This document shows positions 13,634-28,005 of a DNA stretch of 64,000 bases, piece after piece. The position numbers and the translations under genes are program-made. The notes under the pieces were generated by a model. It did not search any database. It saw nothing but the letters and a program-made list of their open reading frames with translations, and was not told the origin of the DNA. The first letter of the stretch is position 1, and each line of letters opens with the position of its first letter. Origin of the DNA: an uncultured Maribacter sp. (GTDB lineage: Bacteria; Bacteroidota; Bacteroidia; Flavobacteriales; Flavobacteriaceae); NCBI RefSeq assembly GCF_947496775.1, contig NZ_CANMDU010000012.1:1-64000 (forward strand), in the 5' to 3' direction.

Positions 13634-16048
13634 TTATTTAGACAAAACAATTCCTTTTACGTCTGCTTTATAATTAACAAAAGAGTTCCAAGGGCCATTT
13701 AACCATAGTAATACTTTATGCCCTTCCCCAGCAACAACAATTGGTCTTATATTTCTATATTTAGATTTAGATGTAACTGCCTCCCAATTAATAGTTGACA
13801 CATCATCGTTCATGTTAATTTTAGCCGTGTAAATTTCATGAAGCCCACCTAAATCTTCTCCCGTGGAAGGATTTACATCTGTAGATATATATACTCTTGA
13901 AACATCTTCGGGATCAAAAGCCATTAAACCAGTGTAGCTGCTCTCCATTGTATACAAGCACTTTCCCCCATATGCAATTTCTCTATCAATCCATTTTTCT
14001 CCATTCCAAGAAGCAATCCGAAAACGATGATCATCATTACTTAAATATAAAGAATACCCCATATGCGGGTTGTTATTTTTATCTTTCCCTGTAGCACAGG
14101 ACCAAGCACTGTTTATAACACTTTCAAAACCCTTCTCTTTCTTTTTAGTTTCACTTCCTTTATATATTTTCTCAGCTTCAGTCGTATTTAAAGGCTTTTC
14201 AAAATCTTTTATCTTTGTTCCGTCTACATTATAAAATGCACCATTAGAAAATTCAGCGTAATACAAGCTATTACCATATCTTCTTGGATGACCATCTGTA
14301 AATGAAATTCCGATTGTATTTTCATCCTTTTGAAAATAGCGTGTGTACGGCCTTTGTCTCCCGTCAACATTATCTTCTATAAAATGCAAACTATTAGTAC
14401 TCCAAGTATCTCCATGATCGGACGAGGTAATAAACGCAGGGTTAAACGTTGGTCCATCTCTAAAAAAATTATACAATAACTTTTCGTTTTCTAAATAATA
14501 CAAATTCATATACGTAACTCCTTTATCCTCTTTATAAGTATGGATATACTCTTTTATATCTCCCCATTCCAGATAATTACCTACCGAAGAAACACTATAA
14601 TAATGCTTTTTTTCATTGGCGTGTTTAGCCCACATTGCTAAAATACTCCCATTTGGTCTAACATAAAGAGCTGGAACGTCATGATCATCTGCTTGGAAAT
14701 TTTTATCTAAAACTATAGTTCCTTCCTTTATATTATCTTTTAAATTATAAACCCCAATTTTAACATCTCCTGATCGCCCACTTAACCCTCCAAAAACTAA
14801 TTTACCATTCTTTATTACGGCTCGCGGATCTTGATACCAGCACCAACCTCCATCTTCCATAAATGTTGTAAATAAGGATGTATTCTCTTTTGCTATTTTT
14901 TTAGACTCCTTAATTTCAGTAAATTTATAAACCTCTGCAGAGGCCGCTAAAAAAGCGCCAACACCATATACTTCTGTGTACTCTTTATAACTATTTCCGG
15001 GTGCTGCTCCTACAGGTTGTATATAGCCTACTAAACCTTCTGGAGTAACGCATTTTGTTAATGCGTGCCACCCCTTTAACATTACGGGCTCATAAACTTC
15101 CTTGCTTAAAATCCCTTGATTAATTCCCCAAGCCAGACCATAAACAAAAAAAGCTGAACCACTTATTTCCTTTACTGGGTATGCCTCTTCTCCTCCTAAT
15201 AATCCGGAGGACCAAGTACCATCTTTTCGTTGGGTATTTTTTAAAGTTGCTGCCATTTTCGCAAAAAGGTCAACATAAAATGATTTCCCTTGCCAATCCT
15301 CAGGAAAATCAGGGATCATCAGTGCCAAACCGCCAAAAACCCATCCGTTTCCTCTTGACCAAAATATCTTTTTCCCATTTTGCTCTTTTTTATCCAAATA
15401 GGAGGCATCTCTAGAAAATAAATGTTCTTTATTATCCCAAAGTAAATCATATGTTTTATGATATTGCTTATCCATAAAATTTAAATACTTTGTATCCCCT
15501 GTAGATTTGGCTAATCCTGCCCAAACGGGTGGGGCCATAAAAAGGGCATCGCACCAATCCCAATGTAAACTATCCACTTTTTTACTACCCAAAATTGAAT
15601 CAAACTGTTTTCTCATAGGTTTTAATAACCTAGGATGCCCGTATAGTTTGTGCATCTTTAAATACATTTGGCCAACTGCATGGTCATCTGCATGATATAA
15701 ACGATTATACAGTTCCCATTTGTTATTTTCTCCTATATCATATAACCACTTTTCATATGTAACATCCGGGTTAATTTCTGCCCATTCGTACATTCCTGCA
15801 TAAAGTGCGGCATTAGTCCATTCTAATTCATGGTGCTTATCTCTATTATGCCATTTCTTCTGCTCTTCTTTAGGAGGTAAAGCCCTATATTTTCCCATAT
15901 CATCAAAAGTAGAAATTTGCCAATCGGCTACTCTATTAGCTATCTTCTCCACTTCCATAGTTGATGGTAATTTTGGTTTTGAATTACACCCCACTAGAAA
16001 AAATAATATTAATACATAAACAACTTTGCAAAATTTAATATTCATCAA
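13634..16048 (-). CDS. GH105-like unsaturated uronyl hydrolase fused to a BNR-type beta-propeller, lipoprotein
   Basis: An 804-residue surface or periplasmic lipoprotein; the signal peptide ends in the lipobox LVGC. Residues about 30-385 form an (alpha/alpha)6 barrel of the GH88/GH105 type, with WDWCDALFMAPP carrying the probable catalytic aspartate, FWSRGNGWVFGGLA, and the closing TEVYGVGAFLAASAEVYKF. GH105 enzymes remove the 4,5-unsaturated uronic acid left by polysaccharide lyases acting on rhamnogalacturonan, ulvan and similar polymers. Residues about 400-800 form a BNR_4-like propeller: GGWCWYQDPRAV, SSDHGDTW, GRQRPYTRYF, HMGYSLYLSNDDHRFR. Similar propellers occur in several polysaccharide-active families, including some ulvan lyases. 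No SusC/SusD pair is adjacent. It is divergent from a membrane-bound regulator, and the two are probably functionally linked. Confidence 0.85.
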   Translation of the reverse strand: MMNIKFCKVVYVLILFFLVGCNSKPKLPSTMEVEKIANRVADWQISTFDDMGKYRALPPKEEQKKWHNRDKHHELEWTNAALYAGMYEWAEINPDVTYEKWLYDIGENNKWELYNRLYHADDHAVGQMYLKMHKLYGHPRLLKPMRKQFDSILGSKKVDSLHWDWCDALFMAPPVWAGLAKSTGDTKYLNFMDKQYHKTYDLLWDNKEHLFSRDASYLDKKEQNGKKIFWSRGNGWVFGGLALMIPDFPEDWQGKSFYVDLFAKMAATLKNTQRKDGTWSSGLLGGEEAYPVKEISGSAFFVYGLAWGINQGILSKEVYEPVMLKGWHALTKCVTPEGLVGYIQPVGAAPGNSYKEYTEVYGVGAFLAASAEVYKFTEIKESKKIAKENTSLFTTFMEDGGWCWYQDPRAVIKNGKLVFGGLSGRSGDVKIGVYNLKDNIKEGTIVLDKNFQADDHDVPALYVRPNGSILAMWAKHANEKKHYYSVSSVGNYLEWGDIKEYIHTYKEDKGVTYMNLYYLENEKLLYNFFRDGPTFNPAFITSSDHGDTWSTNSLHFIEDNVDGRQRPYTRYFQKDENTIGISFTDGHPRRYGNSLYYAEFSNGAFYNVDGTKIKDFEKPLNTTEAEKIYKGSETKKKEKGFESVINSAWSCATGKDKNNNPHMGYSLYLSNDDHRFRIASWNGEKWIDREIAYGGKCLYTMESSYTGLMAFDPEDVSRVYISTDVNPSTGEDLGGLHEIYTAKINMNDDVSTINWEAVTSKSKYRNIRPIVVAGEGHKVLLWLNGPWNSFVNYKADVKGIVLSK

Positions 16049-16108
16049 TATTTATTTAAAATGAATTAACATAGCTACAAATTATAAATTATGTACAAAA
16101 ACAGTATA

Positions 16109-16145
16109 TTTAACGATGATTTAACGGTATTTGTAACGGTTAAAT
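16109..16145. promoter_or_regulatory. Three phased TAACG repeats, candidate operator
   Basis: TAACG occurs at 16111-16115, 16122-16126 and 16134-16138, that is, at steps of 11 and 12 bp, all on the same strand and each preceded by T or G. The last copy extends into GTAACGGTTAAAT, which also forms an imperfect inverted repeat with the second. Direct repeats at one-turn spacing are the usual binding site of OmpR-type winged helices, and such a protein is encoded immediately downstream. The site lies between the two divergent genes if the regulator starts at 16178. Confidence 0.5.
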
Positions 16146-16177
16146 ATAACAAGTTGATCCATAAAAAATATACACAA

Positions 16178-17326
16178 ATGCTATCTGATGAAAAAAAAAT
16201 AGAATTGTGTGAAGCTATATTGAAAAGTAAAACTTTTCAAAAATCACCTAAAAGCAGTGCTTTATTAAGATATTTGGTAAAAACAAGTATTAATGGCGAT
16301 ATAGTAAAAGAAGATATTATTGATCTTGAGTTTTTCGGAGACCGCCCTACTACAGACAAAAACAGCACGCGTGTTAGGGTAAATGTTTATAATCTTAGAA
16401 AAAAACTAAATGATTATTACAAAACAGAAGGGCAACTACTACATTGGTTAATAAAAATAGATAAAGGGCAATATAATGTTCGGTTTGAAAAAAGAAAAGC
16501 GAAAGAACGCTTAACATCGTTTATTACAATAAAAAATAGTATCCCATATTTATTTACTGCGTTAATCTGCTCTTTTTTTATTCTAAAAAATTTGCCAAAT
16601 AAACCTCCTAGAATTTGGGAAGGTTTTTTTTTAGAAGAAAAGCAAAACACATTATTTATTGGAGATGCTTATGGAATTAAAGGAAAAACAATTACTGGAA
16701 AAGAAGGATGGACAAGAGATTATTCCATTAAGAATATTGATGACTATTATAAGTTACTTGAAAAAAAACCTGAATTAAAAGATATTACAAAGCCTTCTGA
16801 TTACAATTACATTACAGGAATGGGCGCGGAATCATCTCATGACCTCATGCGTTTATTCGCTGAGTTTAACAGTGATTTTACCATTAGATACTCTTCAAGT
16901 TCTTCCTTTATGGATATTAAAAAAGGTAATTTAATTTACGTTGGTCCATTTAAGAATGAAAATAAATTCATATCTATATTTAATGAGGAAAATCCTTATT
17001 TTAAATTAAATGGAAAAGACATTGTATTTTCTAATCATAAAAATATTCCGAACAAAACCATTAGCTATTCCGATTTTAAGAACGACAGGGATATAGCCGT
17101 TGTATCTAGAATTCCTAGTGGACAAAATAACGAGAGTTTCATATTTTTTTCTAACCATGACATGGGAGTAAAAGCAACCATAAATTATTTTACCAATAAA
17201 GATTCCGTAAAAGCTTTTGATAAAAAATATTTAAAAGGAAAACAATACTTTACCAGTATTTTTTATGCTTATGGAAAAAATAGAACAAACTTAAAATTAG
17301 AAACTTTAATGGTAGTACCCTTTTAG
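16178..17326 (+). CDS. Membrane-bound one-component regulator: winged helix, single span, extracytoplasmic domain
   Basis: From MLSDEKKIELCEAI the protein has 382 residues. Residues about 25-103 resemble an OmpR/ToxR-type winged helix: SALLRYLVKTSINGD, VRVNVYNLRKKLNDYY (recognition helix) and IKIDKGQYNV (wing). This N-terminal module is known from large Acidobacteria-type regulators with the pattern VRVxxxxLRxKLxxYY. One hydrophobic span lies at about 119-138. The remaining 240 residues should be outside the cytoplasm and contain DIKKGNLIYVGPFKNENKF and AVVSRIPSGQNNESFIFFS. The topology is that of ToxR/CadC. A longer start at 16091 adds 29 atypical residues and would put the TAACG repeats inside the gene. 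It probably controls the divergent GH105 lipoprotein. The ligand is unknown. Confidence 0.7.
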   Translation: MLSDEKKIELCEAILKSKTFQKSPKSSALLRYLVKTSINGDIVKEDIIDLEFFGDRPTTDKNSTRVRVNVYNLRKKLNDYYKTEGQLLHWLIKIDKGQYNVRFEKRKAKERLTSFITIKNSIPYLFTALICSFFILKNLPNKPPRIWEGFFLEEKQNTLFIGDAYGIKGKTITGKEGWTRDYSIKNIDDYYKLLEKKPELKDITKPSDYNYITGMGAESSHDLMRLFAEFNSDFTIRYSSSSSFMDIKKGNLIYVGPFKNENKFISIFNEENPYFKLNGKDIVFSNHKNIPNKTISYSDFKNDRDIAVVSRIPSGQNNESFIFFSNHDMGVKATINYFTNKDSVKAFDKKYLKGKQYFTSIFYAYGKNRTNLKLETLMVVPF

Positions 17327-17577: not shown

Positions 17578-18429
17578 TTAATTGGTATCTGCATCTAAAT
17601 AATCGGGAGTACCATCTTCATCTGCATCATCATTAAGCAAATATCCATCCCCATTGGAGTCTTCGTCAATAGATGCCACACCATCATTATCATGATCCTG
17701 TTCTTCTGTAGTAATCAAATCAAATTTAAATATTAAAGGACTATATGCACCAATAGAAGAACCCGATGGTGGAGTATCAAAATACCCCAATCCAGATGGC
17801 ATTATTACCATACCTATTCCAAACCCTTCCGCTGTAAAAGTTCCATCTTCATTAGAAATTACATTAGTGCTAGGTTTTAAAAAGGTCAATCCTTCTGTAA
17901 ATCCTCTGGCTCCTGTAGCCTGTATATTAGATAAATCGAACCAAAACGGTATGTTATAATTTGATTCATCAAAAACCTCACCACTTAACTTAAATCCCTG
18001 ATACCGAACATAAGCCGAATCACCTGCCGTTGCTGTTTCTTTACTATTATCTCCACCTTCTCTAACTGTTAAAAAATATATTTTATGATCAACATCTCCT
18101 TCGTCTTCTAATACTCTAAACCTACTGGAAGAAACTTTAACTGTTTTAAAATCTACTTGATCAAATAATGGAGTTTTATTCGCATTATCTCCTGTTATTT
18201 CCCCAATTTGTATTTTATAATCAAAATCAACAGGTGGATTTGCAAACTCCTCATAATTATAAAAGTGTGTTTTTAAGTACTCTACTATTTCCGCATCATT
18301 CTCTAATGCTACTTCACTCAATAATCTTTGTTCAACCTCGTTAACTCCGCCATCATCATCATCATTATTACAAGAACAAGCAAATATAGAAATTGCTACT
18401 AGCACTAAAATTTTATTCCATTTCATCAA
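17578..18429 (-). CDS. FKBP-type peptidyl-prolyl isomerase lipoprotein with C-terminal Asp-rich calcium-binding-like repeats
   Basis: Begins with a lipoprotein signal (VAISIFACSC) followed by NNDDDDGG. The central region (about 120-235) resembles an FKBP domain: ATAGDSAYVRYQGFKLSGEVFDES, then FTEGLTFLKPS and FGIGMVIMPSGLGYF; these are the sequences that normally form the active-site pocket. The last 45 residues, from DHDNDGVASIDEDSNGDG to DEDGTPDYLDADTN, are typical thrombospondin type 3-like calcium-binding repeats. Gliding or surface-exposed FKBP lipoproteins of this layout are common in flavobacteria. Likely outer-membrane anchored, assisting folding of exported proteins; whether it retains isomerase activity is not clear from sequence. 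Confidence 0.8.
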   Translation of the reverse strand: MMKWNKILVLVAISIFACSCNNDDDDGGVNEVEQRLLSEVALENDAEIVEYLKTHFYNYEEFANPPVDFDYKIQIGEITGDNANKTPLFDQVDFKTVKVSSSRFRVLEDEGDVDHKIYFLTVREGGDNSKETATAGDSAYVRYQGFKLSGEVFDESNYNIPFWFDLSNIQATGARGFTEGLTFLKPSTNVISNEDGTFTAEGFGIGMVIMPSGLGYFDTPPSGSSIGAYSPLIFKFDLITTEEQDHDNDGVASIDEDSNGDGYLLNDDADEDGTPDYLDADTN

Positions 18430-22042: not shown

Positions 22043-23206
22043 ATGGAAAAAAGCAAACTAACTGATCCATTTGAGAAAGCTAGATTAGAAACTGGTCTTG
22101 GAGAAATGAACGATCAAAATGATCCAGTAACGATGCTTTTACGACATAAAGATGTGCGTAAAAGTGCGCATAATTATAAAACGTTTCAATCTGGTGCAAC
22201 ACCAGGCCGTATTGTTATTCCTTCTGAAGTAGATATTAGAGATACGCGCCAAATTCCATTTGAAGTTGACCCACCTGAACATAAAGATTATAGAGCTATT
22301 ATAGAACCATGGTTTAGAAGACCATTACAAGCGGAATATGAAAAGAAATTAACTGCAATTATAACGTCTATAGTAGAGCATGCTCTTACCAAAGAAAGTA
22401 TAGAAGTGGTTACTGAATTTTCTTTACCATTACAATCTAATGCATTAACATTACTAATTAATAGTGATGCTTCTGAGGCCGAAACATGGATTTCTTGGGG
22501 AACACATGTATTTAGAAGTGAAGGAGAAGCTTTAGATGGTGATAAAGCAACGGTTTTGTACGATTATATAGAAAATCAAATTGAAGAAGCAATTAATAGC
22601 CCTTCTGAAAATTTATTTACAAAACTTGTAAATTCTGAGTTTCAGGGAAGAAAGCTTACAAAGGAAGAAATTAAAGGCATTATGGTCTTAACTTTCGCTG
22701 GCGGTAGAGACACGGTTATTAATGCTGTAACCAATTCAATAGCTTATTTTTCAGAGCACCCAGAATCTTTACAACGCATTCAAAAAGAACCAGAAATAAT
22801 AGGTAATGCTGTGGAAGAGTTAATTCGCTATTTTTCGCCTTTAACGCAAATGGGACGCGTAGTTACCGAAGATACATATGTATGCGAACATGCAGCTAAG
22901 GCTAATAGTCGCGTTTCTTTATGCTGGGCATCAGCAAACAGAGATGAAAAAGTTTTTGAAAATCCAAATGAGATTATTCTAGACAGAAAAATTAATCCGC
23001 ATGTAGGTTTTGGCTTTAGTCACCATAACTGTTTAGGTGCTACTCATGCTCGCCAAATAATGCGCATATTATTAAAAACATTATCTAACAAAATACAATC
23101 TATAGACATTTTAGATTACAAAGAAAACATAGAAGATTTAGACCAATTTAAGCGCAAAGTTGGTTATGACAGTATCCACGTAAAATTTAATCCTAAAACT
23201 ATTTAA
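22043..23206 (+). CDS. Cytochrome P450, candidate 6-O-methyl-D-galactose demethylase
   Basis: Soluble bacterial class I P450 of 387 residues. Heme ligand Cys330 lies in FGFSHHNCLG; the K-helix ExxR is Glu259-Leu-Ile-Arg262; the I-helix oxygen-binding motif is AGGRDT. The gene starts a three-gene operon: ferredoxin follows after 15 nt and its reductase overlaps that by one base, so the electron chain NADH - FAD reductase - [2Fe-2S] - P450 is complete. In Zobellia galactanivorans and Formosa agariphila an equivalent trio oxidatively removes the methyl group from 6-O-methyl-D-galactose of porphyran, releasing formaldehyde. The nearby sulfatase and aldose epimerase genes fit this, but no agarase or porphyranase is in the window. 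P450 identity is certain; the substrate is inferred. Confidence 0.9.
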   Translation: MEKSKLTDPFEKARLETGLGEMNDQNDPVTMLLRHKDVRKSAHNYKTFQSGATPGRIVIPSEVDIRDTRQIPFEVDPPEHKDYRAIIEPWFRRPLQAEYEKKLTAIITSIVEHALTKESIEVVTEFSLPLQSNALTLLINSDASEAETWISWGTHVFRSEGEALDGDKATVLYDYIENQIEEAINSPSENLFTKLVNSEFQGRKLTKEEIKGIMVLTFAGGRDTVINAVTNSIAYFSEHPESLQRIQKEPEIIGNAVEELIRYFSPLTQMGRVVTEDTYVCEHAAKANSRVSLCWASANRDEKVFENPNEIILDRKINPHVGFGFSHHNCLGATHARQIMRILLKTLSNKIQSIDILDYKENIEDLDQFKRKVGYDSIHVKFNPKTI

Positions 23207-23221
23207 AACAACTACTCTATT

Positions 23222-23530
23222 ATGGCAAAAATTACATTTATAACAAGCGACAACGAAAAAATAACCCTAGAAGGAACTACTGGTTCTGTAATGGCTTTAG
23301 CTGTTGAAAATAATATTAAAGGTATTGACGGAGATTGTGGTGGTGTTTGCTCCTGCGCCACTTGTCATGTACATGTAACCCCTGAAAATATGGCAAAAAC
23401 AGGAGAGGCAAGTGAAATAGAAATGGACATGTTAGAATTAGACGACAATACGGATGAATACAGCCGTCTATGCTGCCAGTTAGAGATAAGTGATGCTATT
23501 GATGGCGTTGTATTGAAAGTTGCAAAATAA
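23222..23530 (+). CDS. [2Fe-2S] ferredoxin, putidaredoxin/adrenodoxin type
   Basis: Electron carrier for the adjacent P450. The 102-residue protein has the vertebrate-type cluster ligands Cys39, Cys45 and Cys48 in CGGVCSCATCHVHV and Cys85 in RLCCQL, spaced almost exactly as in putidaredoxin. It starts 15 nt after the P450 stop and its stop shares a base with the reductase start, so the three proteins are made together. Confidence 0.95.
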   Translation: MAKITFITSDNEKITLEGTTGSVMALAVENNIKGIDGDCGGVCSCATCHVHVTPENMAKTGEASEIEMDMLELDDNTDEYSRLCCQLEISDAIDGVVLKVAK

Positions 23531-24798
23531 TGAATAATACCCCCAAAAAAGAAAATGAAACTTGCGTTATTATTGGAGCAAGCCATGCTGGTGTTAATTT
23601 AGCTTTTGGATTACGAAGAGAAGGTTGGTCAGGAGATATTCATCTGTATGATACCGATCCAGAATTACCATATCATCGCCCACCTCTTTCCAAAGCGTAT
23701 TTAACTAGTGGAGATACTATAGAAAAAAACCAACTTAGATCTTCTGAAAGCTATAAATCGGAAAACATTGCTCTGCATTTAGGAAGTACTGTAAAAGAAA
23801 TTAATCGAGAAAACAAAAAAATAGTACTCGGAAATGGTTCTTTACAATCTTATGATAAATTAGTAATAGCCTCTGGAGCAAGACCAATTATTCCACCCAT
23901 CCCTGGAATAGAAACCGCTAAAAATATATTCCCAATACGAACTGCCGCAGATATAAACAACATTCGCGAAGCATTATCAAAAAGCATCACTAAAAGAGTA
24001 GTTATTATTGGTGGTGGGTATATTGGATTAGAAACAGCTGCTTCATTAAAAAAACTTGGTGCAACAGTTACTGTATTAGAAAGAGAAAAAAGGATATTAG
24101 CAAGAGTAACAGCCCCTGAAATGTCCTCTTTCTTTCAACTAATCCATAACGAAAATGGTGTGGATATTATTACCTCTAAAAATGTTAATAAAATAGAGTA
24201 CAAAAACGATAAAAACACAATTCTTTGCGCTGATAACACAAGCTATATTGCAGATATTGTTATTGTTGGTGTAGGTATTTTTGTAAACAAAGAGCTTGCC
24301 GAGCAAGCAGGAATTTTATGCAAAAATGGTATTTGTGTAGACGAAAACACCAGAACAAATGACCCTGATATTTTTGCTATTGGAGATTGTTCTTACCATT
24401 ATAACCCACATTATGATAAATATCTACGATTAGAATCAGTACAAAATGCAATAGACCAAGCAAAAGTCACCGCTGCTACTCTTTGCTGTAAAGAGATTAT
24501 ATACGATACTATTCCTTGGTTTTGGTCGGACCAATACAATGTGAAACTACAAATGGTAGGTCTTTCTCAAGGATACAACCAGATAATACTAAGAAAAGAA
24601 TCCGGAGAGGGTACTTACGGAGATAGTTTTTCTGTTTGGTATTTTAAGGATGAAACCCTTTTGGCAGTTGACGCTGTAAATAATGCTAAGGCCTATGTTA
24701 TTGGCACTAAATTTATAAAAGGAAACCTAAAGGTTAACAAACAGAAACTCGCCAATCCAGAAACGGCTTTTAAGCCTAATAATCTACTACTAGAATAA
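23530..24798 (+). CDS. NAD(P)H-dependent ferredoxin reductase (putidaredoxin reductase family)
   Basis: FAD flavoprotein of 422 residues that passes electrons from NAD(P)H to the ferredoxin. The FAD-binding GxGxxG region is VIIGASHAGVNLAFGLRREG, followed by PYHRPPLSKAYL, typical of the family; the pyridine-nucleotide loop is VVIIGGGYIGLETAASLKKLG with Glu at the end of the second strand (VLEREK), suggesting NADH; the second FAD motif is IFAIGDCSYHYN. The C-terminal region contains the ferredoxin-contact domain with PWFWSDQYNVKLQMVG. Its ATG overlaps the ferredoxin stop (TAATGA). Confidence 0.94.
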   Translation: MNNTPKKENETCVIIGASHAGVNLAFGLRREGWSGDIHLYDTDPELPYHRPPLSKAYLTSGDTIEKNQLRSSESYKSENIALHLGSTVKEINRENKKIVLGNGSLQSYDKLVIASGARPIIPPIPGIETAKNIFPIRTAADINNIREALSKSITKRVVIIGGGYIGLETAASLKKLGATVTVLEREKRILARVTAPEMSSFFQLIHNENGVDIITSKNVNKIEYKNDKNTILCADNTSYIADIVIVGVGIFVNKELAEQAGILCKNGICVDENTRTNDPDIFAIGDCSYHYNPHYDKYLRLESVQNAIDQAKVTAATLCCKEIIYDTIPWFWSDQYNVKLQMVGLSQGYNQIILRKESGEGTYGDSFSVWYFKDETLLAVDAVNNAKAYVIGTKFIKGNLKVNKQKLANPETAFKPNNLLLE

Positions 24799-24828
24799 CT
24801 TTTTTAGGATAAAAAAAATCTTAAAACA

Positions 24829-24860
24829 AATAAATCGGTCTTTAAAAAGGCCGATTTATT
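24829..24860 (+). terminator. Hairpin after the P450 operon
   Basis: AATAAATCGG (24829-24838) pairs with CCGATTTATT (24851-24860), extended inward by a T-G and a C-G pair around an 8-nt loop. No long T-tract follows on the plus strand; reading leftwards it is followed by a T-rich stretch, so it may also end the convergent sulfatase transcript. Confidence 0.5.
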
Positions 24861-24911
24861 AACTAAGTTAAAAAAACCATTAACTCTGACTCTAAACAGA
24901 TATGGTCATTT

Positions 24912-26390
24912 TTACCTCTCCTTTCTGTGTAAAGGAAAAATACCAGATGGTGTCCTGGATGACGCCAAAAGCTCTTTCATTTCTGCAACTATCTCTGGAT
25001 GTTCCTTTGCTACATTATGTTCTTCTTTAACATCTACATATAAATTATATAGCTCTAAATTGCTTTTCTCTCCTTCAAAAGCATTATAAACAACTCCTTT
25101 CCAGTCGTCTATACGTATAGCTTGCCTCCCTCCTTTTATGGCAAATTCCCAGTATAAATATTTATGTTTTTGTTGCCCTTTCATTCCCAATAAAGAAGGT
25201 AAAAAAGAAATTCCGTCTGTATTTTTAAGAGAAACAATTCCTGCAATTTCTGCTACTGTTGGCACTACATCCCAAAAAGCAGATAGGTGTTCTGTTGATG
25301 TTCCTTTTTTAATTTTTCCTGGCCATAGTACTATGAAGGGTGAACGAATACCCCCATCGTACAAATCTCTTTTTTTTCCTCGCAAACCTCCACTACTATT
25401 AAAGAAATCTATATCAGCTCCTCCTTCTCCATGTGCTCCATTATCACTAGCAAACATTATAATAGTATTATCAGCTATTCCCAAATCGTTCACTTTATCA
25501 ATAATCTGTCCTACATAAACATCCATTCTATCTACCATAGAAGCATAAACAGCGTTGGGAACTTTTTGGGAACAATACTTATAATATTCCATATCCGGAC
25601 CATAGTCTGAAGTATAGTTATCTGATGTTATTAAATGCGATTTTTCTGCAAATTTCCCTTCATACTTTTTAAAAATAGAATCTTTAGGAGATATTAGTTC
25701 TGCATGAGGCAATACTAATGGTATATATGCAAAAAAAGGTTTATCCTTATTCTCTTCTAAAAAATACATAGTTTCTTCTTGTATTACATCAGGGGCATAA
25801 GTAACTTTATTCGTCCAATCGTTTCCTTTTAAAGAATCTTTTTCCTGATTACGCCACAGATAAGGAGGGTAATACCTATGTGCCATTTTTTGATCATTAT
25901 ACCCATAAAATTCATCAAAACCTTGGGCATTTGGATCTCCTTCCCTACCGGTATAACCTAAACCCCATTTTCCGAAAGCGCCGGTAACATAACCTGCAGA
26001 TTTAAGAATTTCTGCTATAGTTATGGCATTTTCTGGTAAGGGAGTTTGCCCTCCGCCTTGTACTTCTCTATTTCCTCTTATGGGTGTATGTCCTGTATGC
26101 TGACCTGTCATTAAAGAAGAACGGGCAGGTGCACATACCGCTGCTCCACTATAGTGATTTGTAAATTTTATTCCATTAGCAGCCATTTTATCAATATTAG
26201 GCGTCATAAATTTCTTTTGACCGTAGCTGCTTAAATCTCCATAACCCAAATCGTCTGCTAGTATATAAATTATATTCGGCTTATTTTTTTGTTTTACATT
26301 TTCCTCCAAAACCTTTTCCTTTACTGCTTCCTTACAGGAAATAAAAAAAACAGTTAGTGCAAAAACAAACCATAAATTTCTTAGTCTCAT
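24912..26390 (-). CDS. Sulfatase (family S1) lipoprotein
   Basis: Formylglycine-dependent sulfatase of 492 residues with a lipoprotein signal (VFFISCKE). NIIYILADDLGYGDLSSYG gives the metal-binding aspartates; the modification motif CxPxR is Cys86 in VCAPARSSLMTG, needing an anaerobic or FGE-type maturase; GKWGLG, PHAE and FASDNGAHGEGG complete the active site. Such enzymes desulfate algal or host glycans in the periplasm or at the cell surface. It lies between the P450 trio and the aldose epimerase, suggesting a sulfated galactan, though the exact linkage cannot be read. It converges with the P450 operon. Confidence 0.92.
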   Translation of the reverse strand: MRLRNLWFVFALTVFFISCKEAVKEKVLEENVKQKNKPNIIYILADDLGYGDLSSYGQKKFMTPNIDKMAANGIKFTNHYSGAAVCAPARSSLMTGQHTGHTPIRGNREVQGGGQTPLPENAITIAEILKSAGYVTGAFGKWGLGYTGREGDPNAQGFDEFYGYNDQKMAHRYYPPYLWRNQEKDSLKGNDWTNKVTYAPDVIQEETMYFLEENKDKPFFAYIPLVLPHAELISPKDSIFKKYEGKFAEKSHLITSDNYTSDYGPDMEYYKYCSQKVPNAVYASMVDRMDVYVGQIIDKVNDLGIADNTIIMFASDNGAHGEGGADIDFFNSSGGLRGKKRDLYDGGIRSPFIVLWPGKIKKGTSTEHLSAFWDVVPTVAEIAGIVSLKNTDGISFLPSLLGMKGQQKHKYLYWEFAIKGGRQAIRIDDWKGVVYNAFEGEKSNLELYNLYVDVKEEHNVAKEHPEIVAEMKELLASSRTPSGIFPLHRKER

Positions 26391-26720
26391 TTATTTAAAT
26401 TTTAAGCTCTTTAAAGAATTTTATTTTTCTAATATTACTTTAGCCTTTCCTTGATAATTATTTTTTTCTGAATTATGTATTTTTGTGCTAGTAATAAGTT
26501 AAAAGTACCTATTATTAAGTAATACTAGTAAATTACGGTTTTTCAATTTATTACTATTTGGAGGCACTAAATATTGGATTTCTATGCCTACACCGAATCC
26601 CCGTAATCATCCACAAAGAATTAATTTCTCTGGTATTTATTACACTTAGTTTACTTTGACCAAAAGCAGTTACCCCTCTACATTAACTGAACAGAATTAC
26701 TGCAAGGTTAAAAATTACAT
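26391..26720. other. Intergenic region with no identifiable feature
   Basis: About 330 bp between the sulfatase and the aldose epimerase on the same strand. All frames are broken by stops, no tRNA-like or terminator hairpin is evident and no clear promoter was found. Some codon-like patches on the minus strand suggest decayed coding sequence but are not convincing. Confidence 0.4.
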
Positions 26721-27893
26721 TTATTCTTTAACCAAAAACTTATAAATACAAATAGAAGAATACGTTTCGCCAGGGTTTAAAATAGTAGATGGAAATTCTG
26801 GATGATTTGGGGAGTCTGGATAATGCTGCGTTTCTAAACAAACGGCTCCTCTTTTCAAATACGGTTTACCACTCTTACCTATTACTGAACCATCCAAAAA
26901 ATTAGAAGTATATAATTGCATTCCTGGTTCATTTGTGTAAACCTCCATAATTCTCCCTGATTCCGGCTCTTCTACTTTTGCTGCAAAAGGAATACCATTT
27001 TTATTAGTCGGAAACTCCTTTACAATAAAATTATGATCGTAACCATTCCCAATAACCAACTGTTCATGGTTTTTATTTATATCCTCTCCTATTACCTTAG
27101 GACTAGTAAAATCAAATGGAGTATCTTTTACTTTGATTATTTCTCCAGTTGGTATTTGGTTTTTATTTAAGGCCGTAAACTCTTCCGAATTTAATGTTAA
27201 AACATGGTCCATAACATCTCCCTCTCCTTCTCCTTTTAAATTAAAAAAGGAATGATGCGTAAGATTCACATGCGTTGTCTTGTCCGTAGTAGCTGAATAT
27301 TTTATTACCAATTCGTTGTCACTAGTTAATCTATAGTTCACGAAAACGGATAAATTTCCAGGATACCCCTCCTCCATATCTGGAGAAACACGAGTAAATT
27401 CCACTTCATCCTCACCAATTACATTTGCTGTCCATACTACTGCATTAAAACCTTTTTCGCCGCCATGAAGATGATTTTCTCCGTTATTCTTAACCAAACT
27501 ATATTTTTCTCCATTCAATGTAAAGGAGCCATTTGCTATACGATTACCATACCTACCAATAGTTGCGCCAAAAAAACCACCTTTTGGGCCTACATATTCC
27601 TTTATATTAGACAACCCTAAGACAACATCAGAGAAGTTCCCGTTTTTATCGGGAATATGCAGCGAAACTAAACATTGTCCATAATTAGTAAATACCGCCT
27701 CAACCCCATTTTTGTTTTTTAATCTATACAAACTAACCTTTTCTCCATCAACAATCGCACTGAAATCTCCTTCTTTAATCATAGATTTAAAAACTTTACT
27801 TTTTTTGCCTAACTTCTTTTTTTCTACTTCTTTGCATTGAATAACACAAAGAGTTATAAATAAAATCACTGCAAAAAATGGTCCTTTTTTCAT
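26721..27893 (-). CDS. galM: Aldose 1-epimerase lipoprotein
   Basis: Interconverts alpha and beta anomers of galactose and related aldoses. From MKKGPFFAVILFITLCVIQC the protein is an exported lipoprotein of about 390 residues; a start at 27917 would add eight residues ahead of the signal. Signatures: NGENHLHGGEKGFN (the substrate-binding histidine), NLTHHSFFNLKGEG (the acid histidine), DTPFDFTSP and the catalytic base Glu in ETQHYPDSPNHP. A periplasmic mutarotase next to a sulfatase and the P450 trio fits a galactose-polymer use module. Same strand as the sulfatase, but 330 bp away. Confidence 0.92.
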   Translation of the reverse strand: MKKGPFFAVILFITLCVIQCKEVEKKKLGKKSKVFKSMIKEGDFSAIVDGEKVSLYRLKNKNGVEAVFTNYGQCLVSLHIPDKNGNFSDVVLGLSNIKEYVGPKGGFFGATIGRYGNRIANGSFTLNGEKYSLVKNNGENHLHGGEKGFNAVVWTANVIGEDEVEFTRVSPDMEEGYPGNLSVFVNYRLTSDNELVIKYSATTDKTTHVNLTHHSFFNLKGEGEGDVMDHVLTLNSEEFTALNKNQIPTGEIIKVKDTPFDFTSPKVIGEDINKNHEQLVIGNGYDHNFIVKEFPTNKNGIPFAAKVEEPESGRIMEVYTNEPGMQLYTSNFLDGSVIGKSGKPYLKRGAVCLETQHYPDSPNHPEFPSTILNPGETYSSICIYKFLVKE

Positions 27894-28005
27894 ACTTATA
27901 AGGCTGTATTTTAGCATGCAAAATTACTTTTAAACAAAAGAAAAATAATTAATAGTGTTATCCAAAGAAAATAGCAAATATAACGTCTACTACATATTTC
28001 TTTAG

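Follow-up and report, generated by a model that had tools for sequence, protein, structure and literature searches.

The 64,000-nucleotide stretch of DNA that was analyzed (here called the window; contig NZ_CANMDU010000012.1 of an uncultured Maribacter sp.) encodes a predicted membrane-anchored regulator and, divergent from it, a lipoprotein-like protein with glycan-active domains, with a conserved block of DNA between the two start codons. The features discussed here are as follows; loci with relatives of the regulator are cited by L numbers where they need to be told apart.

13634 to 16045, minus strand: divergent gene for a GH88/105 (Glyco_hydro_88) plus BNR_4 lipoprotein-like protein, the putative target (Pfam; 4ce7; same gene in L032)
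16098 to 16145, plus strand: candidate operator with AACNGT repeats at 16100, 16123, and 16135 and an imperfect AACGAT at 16112 (upstream comparison, control counts)
16178 to 17326, plus strand: membrane-anchored regulator gene, 382 amino acids (ORF list, starts of relatives, AlphaFold2 model)
16247 to 16492, plus strand: predicted winged-helix DNA-binding domain, residues ~24 to 105 (subthreshold PF00486, hhalign to OmpR-type domains, model)
16529 to 16588, plus strand: predicted single membrane span, residues 118 to 137 (model helix, hydropathy in 41 of 41 relatives)
16598 to 17323, plus strand: predicted extracytoplasmic α/β sensor domain, residues 141 to 382 (model; no match in Pfam, NCBIfam, or PDB sequences)

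The frame from 16109 to 17326 on the plus strand is open and forms part of a longer, intact ORF in the ORF list (16091 to 17326, plus strand); a start at the in-frame ATG at 16091 would give the regulator 29 more residues. L033, L034, and L035, three of the four nearest relatives, have their longest ORF starting at the codon equivalent to the ATG at 16178, and in the fourth (L032), it starts farther upstream. The conserved block at 16098 to 16145 lies just upstream of the ATG at 16178 and would be coding if translation started at 16091. Because the starts of three relatives match 16178 and the conserved block would otherwise be coding, we took the regulator to extend from 16178 to 17326. Its own genome contains no second clear copy of the gene, the sole other match having an E value of 0.03.

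An AlphaFold2 model of the whole regulator, based on a 41-row alignment, had a mean pLDDT of 89.0 and a pTM of 0.66. In this model, helices at residues 24 to 38, 45 to 51, and 64 to 83 and a hairpin of strands 90 to 94 and 101 to 105 form a winged helix, which is followed by a span helix at residues 118 to 137 and an α/β domain up to residue 382. In each of the 41 relatives, the best hydrophobic window lay between these domains, being weak in L035 (1.19), and a net positive charge preceded it in 39 of them; the DNA-binding head at the N terminus is probably located inside the cell, with the C-terminal domain outside. The first-pass annotation had proposed a DNA-binding domain at about residues 25 to 103, a span at 119 to 138, and some 240 outer residues, and the model reproduces this layout with only small shifts (~24 to 105, 118 to 137, and 138 to 382 on the 382-residue numbering). 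It had also called for structure prediction of both halves, and since a winged-helix-like domain was predicted, the absence of such a fold was not seen.

The nearest solved relative of the divergent protein is 4ce7, an unsaturated 3S-rhamnoglycuronyl hydrolase (E value of 1.8e-69), an ulvan enzyme of family GH105. This makes an unsaturated uronyl oligosaccharide the first candidate for a ligand. On the other side of the regulator and convergent with it, positions 17578 to 18429 encode an FKBP-type isomerase with a lipoprotein-like N terminus and an Asp-rich C-terminal tail that resembles calcium-binding repeats.

Divergent genes beside related regulators

The gene neighborhoods of 42 loci were compared, comprising the window, 40 other full-length regulators, and an interrupted copy in L052. 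The upstream gene was divergent in 40 of the 42 loci, compared with 115 of 368 background genes (Fisher P value of 1.5e-16), the background being the other genes of at least 200 amino acids in the same loci, with the divergent partners themselves included. In the two exceptions, L036 and L046, sulfatase genes are located close by downstream. When the divergent genes were typed by cluster, with one representative per cluster scanned, 26 of the 40 first divergent genes were glycan related (GH2, 7; GH3, 5; 3-keto-disaccharide hydrolase, 5; GH88, 3; glucuronate isomerase, 3; SusC, 2; GH115, 1) and 14 were without a known function, 10 of which encode DUF1553 proteins (followed by DUF1501) and 4 of which fall in a cluster without a family. 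The survey of homologues thus bears out a linkage to glycan genes. For the earlier proposal that the regulator sits beside such genes, the strict divergence and the 26 glycan-related neighbors speak in its favor, whereas the 14 neighbors without a known function are left outside it.

A second set, taken from a phylum-wide search and from plasmids, gave a divergent upstream gene for 27 of 27 regulators, with repeats included in this count (L110 duplicates L033, and L111 has a partial near-copy in L112). The first divergent genes scanned in this set comprised eight for TonB-type receptors (in L116, N-terminal CarboxypepD domains only) and others for an alginate lyase (L129; the second gene in L117), MFS_2 and SSF transporters, one sulfatase, one beta-helix protein, and one LacI regulator. 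Contrary to a glycan reading are L124, with an Ig-like protein, and L122, with a short ORF without a family.

On a tree of the 41 regulators, the type of target changed 13 times, compared with a mean of 26.4 and a minimum of 22 in 500 shuffles (a quick tree, with 39 of the 41 rows labeled and ten target states). As judged from these sequences, target type tracks the regulator tree. This bears on the possibility that the glycan linkage is incidental, the protein regulating itself or acting generally and its neighbors reflecting glycan-rich genomes. Many glycan loci are present in these bacteria, and the 14 first divergent genes without a known function would fit such a view; however, the strict divergence, the location of the site in the shared intergenic region, the tracking of the tree by target type, and the recurrence of the arrangement in Acidobacteriota and Gammaproteobacteria argue against it, and we consider it very improbable.

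Several observations on the divergent genes can be added. In L062 to L064, L066 to L072, L104, and L113, from Flavobacteriaceae and Catenovulum, DUF1553 and then DUF1501 genes are divergent from the regulator. The DUF1553 proteins carry a planctomycete cytochrome c domain, and the one in L062 also carries a Laminin_G_3 domain; this module may be linked to glycans or to an inducer. Cluster 10 consists of a secreted protein of 475 to 635 amino acids that is divergent from the regulator in four loci (L050, L051, L057, and L059). One member was searched and had no match in Pfam, NCBIfam, or PDB sequences, and the cluster is a candidate for a new glycan-active family. Finally, one genome contains two copies of a regulator-GH3-regulator segment (L111 and L112); in the L112 copy, three ORFs make up the GH3 gene, and the ORF of one regulator is short.

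Candidate operator and DNA-binding half

The block at 16098 to 16145 is nearly identical in L032, with poorly conserved flanks. Its repeats cover 16100 to 16140 at spacings of 12, 11, and 12 bp. In 28 of 41 loci, the 300 bp preceding the regulator contained a perfect AACNGT pair spaced at 11 or 12 bp, compared with 1 of 386 control upstream regions, and at five other spacing classes, 0 of 41 loci had a perfect pair; when at least 9 of 10 letters were required to match, the counts were 38 of 41 and 20 of 386, respectively. The motif was derived from the same 41 loci on which these counts were made. A motif-free spacing test gave peaks at 11 bp (13 of 41), at 12 bp (20 of 41), and at their sum of 23 bp (8 of 41). 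Among 25 held-out regulators, a perfect pair was present in 4, two of these being near-identical copies, and nine or more letters matched in 9, which is still an excess over the controls. This held-out set was drawn up without L074 (a repeat of L033), the partial matches L087 and L094, and three tetratricopeptide fusions. No convincing pair was found in most of the distant families or upstream of the Granulicella and Catenovulum genes described below. Because few held-out and distant regulators carry the pair, the predicted operator is limited to a close branch, and the site marks the branch of Flavobacteriaceae and Persicobacter rather than the whole family.

In the 3.96-Mb genome, the core at 16121 to 16143 had a single match at up to three mismatches, and this match is exact. 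A backward control pattern also matched once at up to three mismatches, and so the uniqueness of the site partly reflects rarity. A palindrome reading, TTAACNGTTAA, occurred in 14 of 41 upstream regions and in 0 of 390 controls and was dropped, as the tandem repeat at 11 to 12 bp covers more loci.

An array of head-to-tail repeats with a period of one helical turn agrees with binding of the OmpR/PhoB type, and the pho box likewise consists of tandem, same-facing repeats at 11 to 12 bp. That the regulator activates, rather than represses, the divergent gene is nonetheless a guess. As a repressor, the same protein would occupy the repeats without ligand and be released when the glycan product arrives. 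The repeats lie ~55 to 95 bp ahead of the divergent start codon and 37 to 78 bp ahead of the regulator's own, so their occupancy could block either promoter; the several same-facing repeats at 11 to 12 bp, in contrast, resemble PhoB/OmpR activator arrays, and we regard repression as unlikely, roughly a one-in-four matter.

The first-pass annotation had recognized an OmpR-like DNA-binding domain. This match is real and supported by profiles, but it is below the Pfam cutoff and is not accompanied by the N-terminal β-sheet. PF00486 scored 19.6 bits on the window protein, under the Pfam cutoff of 26.2. This family was matched at an E value of ≤1 by 29 of 41 relatives, with a best E value of 4.4e-4, a match that, judged by this value, should also score under the cutoff, and other families were each matched by three members at most; PF17282, WZX_like, and other library matches, seen in one to three members each, were set aside as chance. 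An hhalign comparison of the 41 winged helices with five E. coli K-12 domains (PhoB, OmpR, KdpE, PhoP, and CadC) gave a probability of 68.5 and an E value of 4.6e-5, and the sensor alignment, used as a control against the same set, gave a probability of 0.1. A search of solved-structure sequences with the winged-helix profile returned one match with an E value of about 1, which was taken as chance.

An N-terminal four-stranded β-sheet ahead of three helices defines the OmpR/PhoB DNA-binding family. The profile match begins past this sheet, at column 37 of the template, and the model has helices at residues 4 to 15 and 18 to 21 where the sheet would be. Sequence and model together suggest that the DNA-binding half works like an OmpR/ToxR winged helix, yet with two defining features of that family absent. 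Related winged helices are found on plasmid proteins of Sphingobium and Sinorhizobium that are annotated as adenylate cyclase, as well as at the N termini of longer proteins (L084, L085, and L086), with tetratricopeptide repeats in the Bacteroidota proteins L084 and L086. AACCGT/AACGGT repeats are located upstream of these last two genes at a spacing different from that of the regulator family.

Outer domain and distribution of the family

Modeled alone, the sensor had a pLDDT of 91.3 and a pTM of 0.88. The outer domain had no match among Pfam and NCBIfam models and PDB sequences, nor did the whole protein and its profile match any solved-structure sequence. A Foldseek search of the PDB with the sensor alone placed BcsB at the top, weakly (E value of 1.1e-3, probability of 0.98, query TM-score of 0.32), and the first 24 rows were BcsB, GH84, GH67, and GH115 chains, with query TM-scores of 0.24 to 0.42, identities of 7 to 12%, and probabilities of up to 0.99 for BcsB. 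With the whole protein, BcsB filled the first nine rows and unrelated folds (G-protein-coupled receptors) followed from rank 10. No Foldseek match of the sensor or the whole protein reached an E value of ≤0.001, and for this reason the likeness to BcsB and glucuronidase folds is treated as a lead only. At most, the modeled sensor would share a flavodoxin-like core with BcsB and the GH67, GH84, and GH115 chains.

The most conserved sensor residues are D163, G256, G330, G366, and R369, which are constant across differing target types. Such constancy is expected of a structural or partner surface and not of a ligand-specific pocket, and it would suit an outer domain that reads envelope stress or a partner (for example, a ToxS-like protein, the divergent lipoprotein, or an outer membrane receptor) and not the glycan itself. 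However, no partner gene is common to the loci, in which the first divergent genes are of ten types, and relatives in different phyla adjoin different glycan genes; we judge this about a one-in-five prospect, slightly poorer than that of repression, and prefer a sensor that responds to a glycan product.

Among 299 Flavobacteriaceae genomes, with up to six candidates scored per genome, 27 had a match at an E value of ≤0.001, 21 of them over most of the length (the window's own gene and one interrupted copy included) and 6 only in part. The one other genome of the same genus that was searched contained no relative. Across 395 genomes of the phylum Bacteroidota, with up to four candidates scored per genome, 16 had a match at an E value of ≤1e-5, 12 of which were full length, and a contig search that is sensitive to close kin found only two relatives. 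The family is patchy, as expected of accessory glycan loci.

The first-pass annotation had likened the outer domain to that of large Acidobacteria regulators, and this resemblance held up. Three Granulicella tundricola plasmids were searched; two carry six such genes between them and the third carries none. For each of the six, the divergent neighbor is a carbohydrate or TonB-type gene. By annotation, these neighbors encode a carboxypeptidase-regulatory-like protein (with a xylanase gene next), a TonB receptor (with a GH1 gene next), a GH16 protein, a member of the alginate lyase family, a member of the beta-1,3-glucanase family (with GH2 domains in its visible part), and a GH3 protein. With the database size set to 5000, the winged-helix model matched six of the six genes (i-E values of 2.5e-12 to 2.4e-19) and the sensor model matched four (1.6e-4 to 0.013), the other two being above 1 and not significant. 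An hhalign comparison of five Granulicella sensors with the Bacteroidota sensors gave a probability of 96.1 and an E value of 3.1e-9 over 202 columns, with a probability of 0.2 for a winged-helix control. These results support homology of both the winged helices and the sensors. Against solved-structure sequences, the Granulicella sensor profile gave two matches with E values of about 1, which were taken as chance.

Catenovulum adriaticum (Gammaproteobacteria) has three such regulators, all divergent from their partners: DUF1553/DUF1501; cytochrome c, with a hypothetical gene and DUF1080 next in line; and a hypothetical gene. Novosphingobium humi has copies with both domains, and two ORFs scanned beside the Novosphingobium gene matched no family. 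On sequence evidence, an uncatalogued regulator family appears to recur beside carbohydrate genes in Bacteroidota, Acidobacteriota, and Pseudomonadota. Interrupted regulator copies were seen in a flavobacterium (L052, 9000 to 10190, with a stop) and in Granulicella (L155, 5574 to 6844, as two annotated pieces), which suggests that some loci lose their regulator.

Proposed mechanism and relation to known systems

We think it likely, at close to three chances in four, that the window encodes a one-component regulator of the ToxR-like, membrane-anchored kind, which binds the tandem repeats, controls the divergent GH88/105-BNR_4 lipoprotein gene, and senses a glycan product. This ToxR-like reading, already put forward in the first-pass annotation, is supported by the architecture, the linkage to glycan genes, and the predicted winged helix, and the tandem-repeat site shared by the two genes favors an effect on the divergent one. 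The predicted architecture and span, the divergent arrangement, the tandem-repeat site, the target type that follows the tree, and the relatives in other phyla are what the sequences provide; from the repeats and the divergent arrangement, we infer DNA binding by the regulator and control of transcription from the membrane. In the proposed mechanism, the N-terminal winged helix would bind the AACNGT repeats between the regulator gene and the divergent gene in a head-to-tail manner, which would line up its monomers along a single face of the DNA. A product of glycan breakdown, in all probability an unsaturated uronyl oligosaccharide, would be sensed by the periplasmic α/β domain, and the signal would cross the single span, most likely via changed dimerization, so that the divergent gene, and perhaps also the regulator's own, would then be transcribed.

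Like the transmembrane regulators ToxR and CadC, the window protein combines a predicted winged helix at its N terminus with one span and an outer domain at its C terminus, and no phosphorelay domain was found. It differs from them in that its winged helix is under the Pfam cutoff and without the N-terminal β-sheet, in its outer domain, and in its location beside glycan loci. Its recognition-helix region aligns with those of PhoB, OmpR, KdpE, PhoP, and CadC, and the tandem repeats at 11 to 12 bp are as in the pho box; unlike the PhoB/OmpR response regulators, it has no receiver domain and is predicted to be membrane anchored. As with SusR, hybrid two-component systems, ECF/anti-sigma pairs, and LacI regulators, many loci of the family have SusC/TonB receptors and glycan enzymes next to the regulator, but the window protein, without a kinase, joins an outer sensor and a DNA-binding domain in one chain. 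The domains of those systems (histidine kinase, receiver, Y_Y_Y, LacI, sigma, and anti-sigma) are absent from it at a Pfam E value of ≤1, at which only PF00486 and PF17282 matched, and Sigma_reg_N was matched by a single member among the 41 relatives.

According to the available portions of a census of transmembrane transcription regulators ("TTRs"), Pfam models of DNA-binding domains were used, and hybrids make up ~72% of such regulators in the genus Bacteroides (PMC10269533). Because both halves are below or outside Pfam, a domain-based census of this kind would probably miss the present family. In its accessible text, a review of hemicellulase gene regulation covers hybrid two-component and ECF/anti-sigma systems for Bacteroides and contains neither the word ToxR nor winged helix (PMC10766802), and the accessible text of a Solibacter genome paper has no description of the family (PMC3174227). 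We recognized no description of it in the open-access literature, which was covered mostly at the level of titles and abstracts, with subscription journals mostly outside, and this is weak evidence of absence.

On balance, and by a narrow lean, the family may represent a further mode of glycan control across phyla, in which one membrane-anchored protein with a new α/β oligosaccharide receptor drives one divergent operon from tandem repeats. With a regulator and a predicted target at each locus, and a predicted site in the close branch, the signal of many marine and soil glycan loci becomes testable, and the sensor is small, with a ligand that can be guessed from the neighboring enzyme. The findings also suggest that Pfam-based surveys of membrane-bound regulators overlook a class of proteins found repeatedly, in Bacteroidota, Acidobacteriota, and Pseudomonadota alike.

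Elsewhere in the window, positions 22043 to 27917 contain a row of genes for a cytochrome P450, a ferredoxin, and a ferredoxin reductase, adjoining a sulfatase and an aldose 1-epimerase gene. This row may resemble the 6-O-methyl-galactose demethylase set of porphyran users.
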